This document shows positions 15,600-46,112 of a stretch of DNA of 64,000 bases, in pieces. Each line of letters opens with the position of its first letter. Position 1 is the first letter of the stretch. Under the pieces are notes generated by a model that was given only the letters and a program-made list of their open reading frames with translations, was not told the origin of the DNA and did no database searches. This stretch comes from Acidobacteriota bacterium (GTDB lineage Bacteria; Acidobacteriota; Blastocatellia; RBC074): assembly GCA_016196035.1 (NCBI GenBank), contig JACPYM010000029.1, positions 62,001-126,000 on the forward strand. Reading direction: 5' to 3'. The position numbers and the translations under genes are program-made.

Positions 15600-15692
15600 A
15601 TGTCCGGCAAGCTGCCAGCTTGCCGGACGCTTAGCAGTAAAACCCATTGTTCGCCAGCCGCGACCCCGGCAAGCTGGCAGCTTGCCGGACAT
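15600..15692. repeat. Perfect 27-bp inverted repeat with self-palindromic arms
   Basis: Left arm 15600-15626 and right arm 15666-15692 are exact reverse complements. Each arm contains CCGGCAAGCT..AGCTTGCCGG, a near-perfect palindrome by itself. It separates the CHAT gene stop from the lactonase start. Unlike most of the others the outer edge reads ATGTCCGG, not GTAC. Confidence 0.9.
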
Positions 15693-33659: not shown

Positions 33660-33662
33660 AAC

Positions 33663-33792
33663 GTACAGCAGGCTGCCAGCCTGCTGTGGTCTCTGCGGCG
33701 CACCCCCCGCGAGGCAATTGCAGGCTGGCAGCCAATCGTTGCCCGCAAGCCGTTTGATGCGGAGACCGCAGCAGGCTGGCAGCCTGCTGTAC
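33663..33792. repeat. GTAC-ended compound palindrome next to the acyl-CoA synthetase start
   Basis: Left arm 33663-33694 and right arm 33761-33792, 32 nt each with 2 mismatches. Each arm contains CAGCAGGCTG..CAGCCTGCTG, itself a palindrome. A third partial copy lies in the loop (GCAGGCTGGCAGCC). The right arm ends 6 nt before the ATG at 33799, where no SD can be seen. Confidence 0.88.
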
Positions 33793-33798
33793 ATTAAG

Positions 33799-40557: not shown

Positions 40558-40559
40558 CT

Positions 40560-40659
40560 GTACCGCAGGCTGCCAGCCTGCTGGGAACTCGCGCCGAGGC
40601 TCGCCGGGTTACAACTACGTCATTTATCAAACACGCAACAGGCTGGCAGCCTGCTGTAC
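40560..40659. repeat. GTAC-ended compound palindrome before hmgA
   Basis: Left arm 40560-40584 and right arm 40636-40659, 24 nt with 2 mismatches, GTAC(C/A)GCAGGCTGCCAGCC. Each arm holds a CAGGCTG..CAGCCTG palindrome. It ends 6 nt before the hmgA ATG at 40666, so the hmgA RBS (AAGG) abuts it. Same family as 33663-33792. Confidence 0.85.
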
Positions 40660-40665
40660 AAGGTT

Positions 40666-44662: not shown

Positions 44663-45238
44663 ATGCCAATAACCGACAGCGAAACCCTGACCTTACTTTT
44701 GCAACGCGCCAGCTCCGGTGAACAAGCCGCCGTGGACCAACTTCTTTCGATCGTGTATCCCGAGTTGCGCCGCATGGCAAGCAAACGATTGCGGCTGGAA
44801 CGATCCGACCACACCTTGCAACCCACAGCACTGGTCAACGAAGTCTACCTGCGCCTGTTTGGCGCGCTGCCCATTAACTGGCAGAACCGGGCGCATTTTT
44901 TTGCCCTCGCCGCCAAACACATGCGCTTCATTCTGGTGGAACACGCGCGCAACCGGCGCGGCGGTGCGCAGTTCACTATTTCGCTGGAAGGCGGTGAAGA
45001 CGGCGAGCCGCTGCAAATTCCCGTTAGCTCCAAGCAGGATTTGCTCGAACTGGACGAAGTCTTGGGGCAACTGGAAGCGATTGACCCGCGCGCCGCACAC
45101 GGCGTGGAGTTGCGCTATTTCGTTGGCCTGACGCAACAGGAGATTGCCGAGATACAAAAGATTGACGTCGCCACGGTCAAACGCGATTGGGTCTTTGCCA
45201 AAGCGTGGTTGCATAGCCGCCTCAAATCTTCTGCCTGA
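44663..45238 (+). CDS. ECF-like sigma factor, acidobacterial type (TIGR02999-like)
   Basis: 191 aa. Region 2: LLQRASSGEQAAVDQLLSIVYPELRRMASKRLRLERSDHTLQPTALVNEVYLRLF, the pattern typical of the Acidobacteria/Planctomycetes ECF subfamily. Region 4: LEAIDPRAAHGVELRYFVGLTQQEIAEIQKIDVATVKRDWVFAKAWLHSRL. Such sigma factors often sit next to a Ser/Thr kinase gene; one lies at 52477. It is 19 nt after fahA but probably belongs to the following signalling block. Confidence 0.92.
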   Translation: MPITDSETLTLLLQRASSGEQAAVDQLLSIVYPELRRMASKRLRLERSDHTLQPTALVNEVYLRLFGALPINWQNRAHFFALAAKHMRFILVEHARNRRGGAQFTISLEGGEDGEPLQIPVSSKQDLLELDEVLGQLEAIDPRAAHGVELRYFVGLTQQEIAEIQKIDVATVKRDWVFAKAWLHSRLKSSA

Positions 45239-45239
45239 T

Positions 45240-45343
45240 GTACAGCAAGCTTTCCAGCTTGCTGTTGGTCGCCTGCTGATGACTGGCGTGACTTCCGTAT
45301 GTTCACGCGGCAAGTTCGCAGCAACCTGGAAAGGTTGCTGTAC
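45240..45343. repeat. GTAC-ended compound palindrome with compensatory arm differences
   Basis: Left arm GTACAGCAAGCTTTCCAGCT.. (45240-45264) and right arm (45319-45343), reverse complement GTACAGCAACCTTTCCAGGT... The two arms differ at exactly two positions (G/C and C/G), and each difference is complementary within its own arm (AAGCT..AGCTT and AACCT..AGGTT). Sits downstream of the sigma gene, convergent with the next. Confidence 0.9.
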
Positions 45344-45431
45344 ACGCAAACCGAAACGCTGGCGGTGGCAGCCACAGCGCGCCATGACTGCCGCCACTCA
45401 GAAATACCCTGGGCTGCGGACACTCGAAGAT

Positions 45432-46013
45432 TCACTTTCTGGGTTTGCTCTCAGCCGCCACGAGTTCCAATTCCCGCTCCAATGTGTCGAACTGCTCCTG
45501 CAACTCGGCCAGTTTGGCCTGCTCCGTGCGCCACGCGACTTCGAGTTGTTGCTGCCGTTCGCGGCTGCGGTCAGCCTCTTGCCGGGCGTATTCGCGCTGG
45601 CGTTCCAACGCGCGTTTCAGGCTGTTGTACGACTGCGCTAGCGCGGCGCGCTGTTGCGGGTCGGCGGTTTCATTGATCGTGGCGAGCAAATCTTTCAACT
45701 CGTCTTCGTCACGCGTGTCCTGCGCGTGCTGGATGACGGATTTGAGCTGCGCGATTTCTTCGCCCAGGCTGTCCACGCGCGCCTGTTGCCGCGCCAGCCG
45801 CTCGGTCAACGTCTGCGCGCGGTAGGCGTTGACATAGGTGCGCTGCAAGACGGTGCGTTGCAGGCGTAACTCTTCGAGGATGGCGCGCAGCAATTGCACG
45901 TCGGGCGTGGCGGCAACAGGCGATGTGGCGGGGGATTGTGTTTGCGCCTGTGCCGCCAACGTCAACACCAGGCAAATACCAATGAACGACAGAATCAATT
46001 TCATTTTTGACAT
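45432..46013 (-). CDS. Exported coiled-coil protein
   Basis: 193 aa from ATG 46013 (SD AGGAG). Signal peptide KLILSFIGICLVLTLAAQAQ, then residues about 50-190 are a heptad-like coiled coil (LRAILEELRLQRTVLQRTYV..RLARQQARVDSLGEEIAQLKSVIQ and REYARQEADRSRERQQQLEVAW). Contains no enzymatic motif. Probably a periplasmic structural protein of the signalling block. Confidence 0.75.
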   Translation of the reverse strand: MSKMKLILSFIGICLVLTLAAQAQTQSPATSPVAATPDVQLLRAILEELRLQRTVLQRTYVNAYRAQTLTERLARQQARVDSLGEEIAQLKSVIQHAQDTRDEDELKDLLATINETADPQQRAALAQSYNSLKRALERQREYARQEADRSRERQQQLEVAWRTEQAKLAELQEQFDTLERELELVAAESKPRK

Positions 46014-46112
46014 CGCAAGATTCTCCTGGAAGGGCCGGGAGCTTCGACAGACATGCGCCAGACGAGGCTCCCGGCAATTTGAGGTTATGGGCAACGGCAC
46101 GCTGCGCGCTGC

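Follow-up and report, generated by a model that had tools for sequence, protein, structure and literature searches.

The paired hairpins that lie in the gap between two convergent genes of an Acidobacteriota bacterium are a REPIN, a known type of miniature mobile element in which two REP hairpins are arranged head to head, and each of the small hairpins in this element is conserved on its own. We consider it very probable that this is a non-autonomous REPIN, the hairpins of which are kept for recognition by a REP-associated tyrosine transposase (RAYT) as folded single-stranded DNA. The element was studied in its window, by which we mean the whole 64,000-nucleotide stretch of DNA that was analyzed, together with its relatives in the rest of the genome and in one other genome of the genus (G001).

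The focal element is an inverted repeat with 26-nt arms that are 92% complementary and lie 54 nt apart (Table 1). Written from the outer end inward, the arm sequences are TGTACAGCAAGCTTTCCAGCTTGCTG and TGTACAGCAACCTTTCCAGGTTGCTG. Positions 11 and 20 alone differ, and within the 9-bp hairpin of each arm these two are partners, forming G·C in the left arm and C·G in the right arm. The original prediction, made from the letters of the sequence, had stated that the arms differ at exactly two positions and that each difference restores the pairing within its own arm; both statements hold, and the element is located where it had been placed, although the borders given at the time (45240-45343) fall one base short at each end, the true span being 45239-45344. 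Folded as single-stranded DNA, the single arms yield -10.1 and -9.8 kcal/mol (z-scores of -5.2 and -6.0 against shuffles). The tag of the focal subfamily is GTAC, not GTAG, and its fourth base, C, pairs with the last stem base, G. The spacer is partly self-complementary and mostly unlike those of other copies in sequence. The focal motif has two matches in the window against 0.00 expected, and chance G·C-rich palindromes were rejected by the shuffles and the reversed-pattern control. A sequence error behind the difference between the arms is unlikely given that both arm types recur and that the mixed pair is present also in the second species (G001:C204). The focal copy, for which the location was examined, is extragenic; the sigma factor gene upstream of it belongs to a large ECF group, with 46 matches in the genome at E-values of 1e-30 or lower.

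Table 1. Location of the focal REPIN, its neighbors and related repeats (positions are those of the window unless a contig is given)
Feature	Position	Strand	Description
Left REP	45239-45264	+	Tag GTA(C), 9-bp hairpin CAGCAAGCT-TTCC-AGCTTGCTG, variant AAGCT
Spacer between the focal REPs	45265-45318		54 nt, in the main 47-54 nt spacer class
Right REP	45319-45344	-	Tag GTA(C), 9-bp hairpin CAGCAACCT-TTCC-AGGTTGCTG, variant AACCT
ECF sigma factor gene	44663-45238	+	Stop codon directly before the left REP
Convergent gene downstream	45432-46028	-	Function unknown
Related REPIN	15601-15691		Stem CGGCAAGCT-GCC-AGCTTGCCG, arms identical
Related REPIN	33662-33793		GCC-loop subfamily, arms identical in the stem
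Related REPIN	40559-40660		GCC-loop subfamily, one mismatch and one wobble
Copy of the ~205 bp repeat (L202)	G000 C31:138806		
Copy of the ~205 bp repeat (L205)	G000 C56:6003		
Copy of the ~205 bp repeat (L216)	G000 C87:303		
Copy of the ~205 bp repeat (L218)	G000 C90:50905		
Copy of the ~205 bp repeat (L221)	G000 C95:82820		

The 26-nt REP unit is represented in the genome by 17 copies at three or fewer mismatches, most of which form inverted pairs with the GTAC tag outermost; the reversed control pattern has no match. A pattern with four free stem letters gave 94 exact matches in the genome and some in the second species, again with none for the reversed control, and a covariance model search detected further related REP units; the GTAC super-family includes about 120 REPs in the genome. 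Besides inverted pairs, single REPs and tandem arrangements occur. At least four stem/loop types are present in this genome, namely GTAC with the TTCC loop (the focal type), GTAC with the GCC loop, GTAG with the stem GCGCAACCT, and the types found beside the C24 and C97 transposase genes; the GTAG tag is present in C95:32671 and other REP families of the genome. With few exceptions, the tagged strand of a copy has the loop TTCC or GCC, and this loop is conserved in both orientations of the REP pair. The spacers of the GTAC REPINs fall into classes near 31-33, 47-54, 78-84 and 122 nt. A search of a plasmid collection produced no match.

Comparison of the copies shows which structure is constrained. 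In a set of 15 distinct REPs, pairing holds in 97.8% of the hairpin cells and four of the nine pairs have changed on both sides, with a covariation score that was reached in none of 500 shuffles. A pattern that left two letters free on either side of the stem matched 120 units, in which 236 of the 240 cells are paired, whereas shuffling gave 187 on average and at most 199. Within 78 REPINs, 15 stem pairs differ between the two arms on both sides, where independence predicts 1.9 two-sided differences, and all 15 pair in both arms, whereas 5000 permutations gave a mean of 0.70 compensated differences and a maximum of 6; the REP copies are related, and these counts are not counts of independent events. 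Because every two-sided difference is compensated in this manner, far beyond the permuted mean, we conclude that each hairpin is conserved separately. Seven of the nine stem positions and two tag families contain compensated differences, a distribution that a single inherited change would hardly produce. Pairing within the arms amounts to 98.5-99.3%, compared to an arm-to-arm identity of 90-95%. Some similarity between the arms remains, by descent or by constraint: in the GCC-loop family, the arms of the same element are 95.2% alike as against 93.8% for random arms (p 0.005), and in the TTCC-loop family (8 elements) the corresponding comparison is not significant (p 0.19). The original prediction had further held that the hairpin within each arm, and not the match between the arms, was kept, and had proposed covariation among the copies as a check; among the copies in the genome the within-arm compensation is strong, and the claim stands apart from the slight likeness of the arms left in the GCC-loop family.

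With regard to the origin of the focal difference, we lean towards a combination of two existing REP variants, through recombination, conversion or independent arrival, as opposed to mutations in place. Each of the two focal arm types is also known from elements whose arms are alike (C15:210467 for AAGCT; C122 and C64 for AACCT), so that the focal element may mix ready-made variants. Within the REPINs the two types are common (4 and 5 copies), their combination is seen again at C15:2292, at C50 and in the second species, and a swap of C·G to G·C has no route through a wobble pair. Other elements, however, have an arm that is private to them and contains a compensated pair (for example C57:150164, C135 and C36:41729); at C57:150164, the arm CAGGAGGCT...AGCCTCCTG was found once, beside a common arm, and this and similar elements speak for compensation in place there. 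Moreover, no orthologue of the focal intergenic gap was found by which the ancestry of the element could be traced: in the sister species, represented by one genome that is 73% complete, a fumarylacetoacetase gene was identified (70%), and the sigma factor gene and the gap are absent.

Several RAYT genes were detected in the genome with the NF047646 profile, two of them with scores above the curated cut-off of 80 bits. The C104 RAYT scores below this cut-off (70.9 bits, E 1e-19) and is tightly flanked by GTAC-tagged GTACAGCAGGCT-GCC-AGCCTGCTG REPs, which agree with the focal REPs in the tag and in most of the stem. This protein matches the solved structure of the E. coli TnpA-REP (4er8, E 6e-4) and contains the HUH histidines and a catalytic-type tyrosine (H149, H151 and Y229), which are invariant in six proteins. 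A RAYT with 60% identity to it is encoded in a Chloracidobacterium MAG and is flanked there by GTAC GTACAACAGGCT-GCC-AGCCTGTTG REPs, the stem of which shows a compensated change from G·C to A·T. The C24 and C97 RAYT genes are flanked by GTAG-tagged REPs; the latter gene (G000 C97:33384; L037, L056) is located amid at least four REPIN-like pairs with the stem GGGGCAGAC and the tag GTAG. Beside TTCC-loop REPs, no RAYT gene was found in either of the two genomes of the genus that were searched, which counts against assigning a particular enzyme to the TTCC-loop subtype.

TnpA-REP enzymes act strand-specifically, and what they bind and cleave is the REP in the form of a single-stranded hairpin (Corneloup et al. 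2021, PMC8266576). A RAYT of this HUH family would most likely act in trans on the focal REPIN and recognize each REP once it has folded into a hairpin in single-stranded DNA, as could happen on the lagging-strand template. Such recognition would demand that each hairpin keep its own pairing, and the arms would be free to drift apart or to be combined from different variants. The constancy of the loop on the tagged strand matches what strand-specific recognition would demand. The anatomy, the repeat family, the covariation and the presence of matching REPs on both sides of RAYT genes are observed directly, and from there the single-stranded recognition, the mobilization in trans and the choice of the RAYT that serves the TTCC-loop subtype are inferred. 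Movement of whole units is not directly visible, the spacers of the focal family being largely unrelated in sequence. Between the two genomes of the genus that were compared, there is no clean pair of an empty and a filled insertion site; one element is missing from the other species, where, however, the gene order differs. The stem types of the REPINs at one shared intergenic spot are not the same in the two species (G000 C2:133425, L173, and G001 C204:11853, L133), which shows turnover and does not reveal its mechanism.

A role in RNA, in which REPs at the 3' ends would protect or terminate the transcripts of both convergent genes, appears unlikely. The location is suggestive, given that the left REP follows the sigma factor stop codon immediately and lies between convergent genes, and REPs are often found downstream of genes and are plausibly transcribed (Di Nocera et al. 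2013, PMC3733652); furthermore, among the one-sided differences between the arms of the 78 REPINs, 25 keep a G-T wobble and 18 break the pair. On the other hand, there is no intrinsic terminator at the focal element, with no T-run after the hairpins, and the Rfam search of the window matched no family, whereas the tagged strand keeps its loop whichever way the pair is oriented and RAYT genes are flanked by matching REPs. The suggestion of a structure acting locally as DNA or RNA is borne out as far as the hairpin itself is concerned; covariation alone cannot separate the two, and it is the transposase association and the strand-specific loop that favor DNA over RNA. Use by the host could be secondary to mobility.

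It is highly improbable that the conserved structure is instead a long arm-to-arm hairpin or cruciform, with the two mismatches as tolerated noise: although the whole 106-nt element folds arm-to-arm as DNA at -31.2 kcal/mol, which makes this fold more stable on one DNA strand than the separate arm hairpins, and the arms of GCC-loop elements are slightly more alike than random arms, each of the 15 two-sided differences disrupts the pairing between the arms and leaves the small hairpins intact, and REPs exist singly and in tandem.

As a REPIN served by a RAYT, the focal element would resemble several known systems. The REPINs described by Bertels and Rainey (2011, PMC3116915) likewise consist of inverted REPs separated by a spacer of tens of bases, are dispersed, form single-strand hairpins and are linked to RAYTs; the present elements differ in that they come from another phylum, close to Chloracidobacterium (Acidobacteriota), and in their stems, the GTAC tag and the spacer classes near 32, 51, 81 and 122 nt. 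The GTAG REP families 1-24 (Di Nocera et al. 2013, PMC3733652) are similar in their stems of 6-13 bp with short loops, in the head-to-head dimers 20-100 bp apart and in the division into subfamilies by alternative complementary stem residues, which is found here as well; in those families, the tag varies at the second and third base only, whereas in the present family C takes the fourth place and pairs with the last stem base, G. As in the TnpA-REP/REPtron systems, in which the enzyme recognizes single-stranded REP hairpins (Corneloup et al. 2021, PMC8266576; E. coli 4er8), the gene of an HUH tyrosine transposase is flanked by its own REPs; in contrast to TnpA-REP, the RAYTs here score 66.9-71.8 bits against the NCBIfam cut-off of 80 bits and have a longer N-terminal part.

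Stem changes that are compensated have been reported before for REPs and REPINs, and the only novelty is a REP family tagged GTAC instead of GTAG; a short literature search found no description of a GTAC tag with the fourth base in the stem. We tentatively suggest that a RAYT lineage of Acidobacteriota might use GTAC...G REPs in a genome that also has RAYTs with GTAG...C REPs. If true, this would be a natural change of a guide base with compensation, useful for testing how the tag chooses the cleavage site. In vitro, after a change of GTAG to GTAC, one TnpA-REP no longer cleaved its normal CT site, a point against the proposed recognition of GTAC REPs by a RAYT, and the tag-guide rule predicts the choice of a GT or GA site for GTAC (Corneloup et al. 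2021, PMC8266576). The flanks of the GTAC REPs do not support this prediction, with CT or TT at the inner +5/+6 positions in 42 of 74; a T precedes the tag in 50 of the 74. The many copies in one genome identify the small hairpin, not the arm-to-arm match, as the constrained unit of REPINs, and a REP family with an unusual tag is added, along with transposase relatives that can be tested; because the general principle is already in print, the gain is modest.

Among the other repeats of the genome, REPINs with the GACT/AGTC stem are contained in a larger repeat of ~205 bp, the copies of which are 88-96% identical (Table 1), with a more distant sixth copy in L199; the larger repeat may itself be a miniature element with a REPIN inside it.
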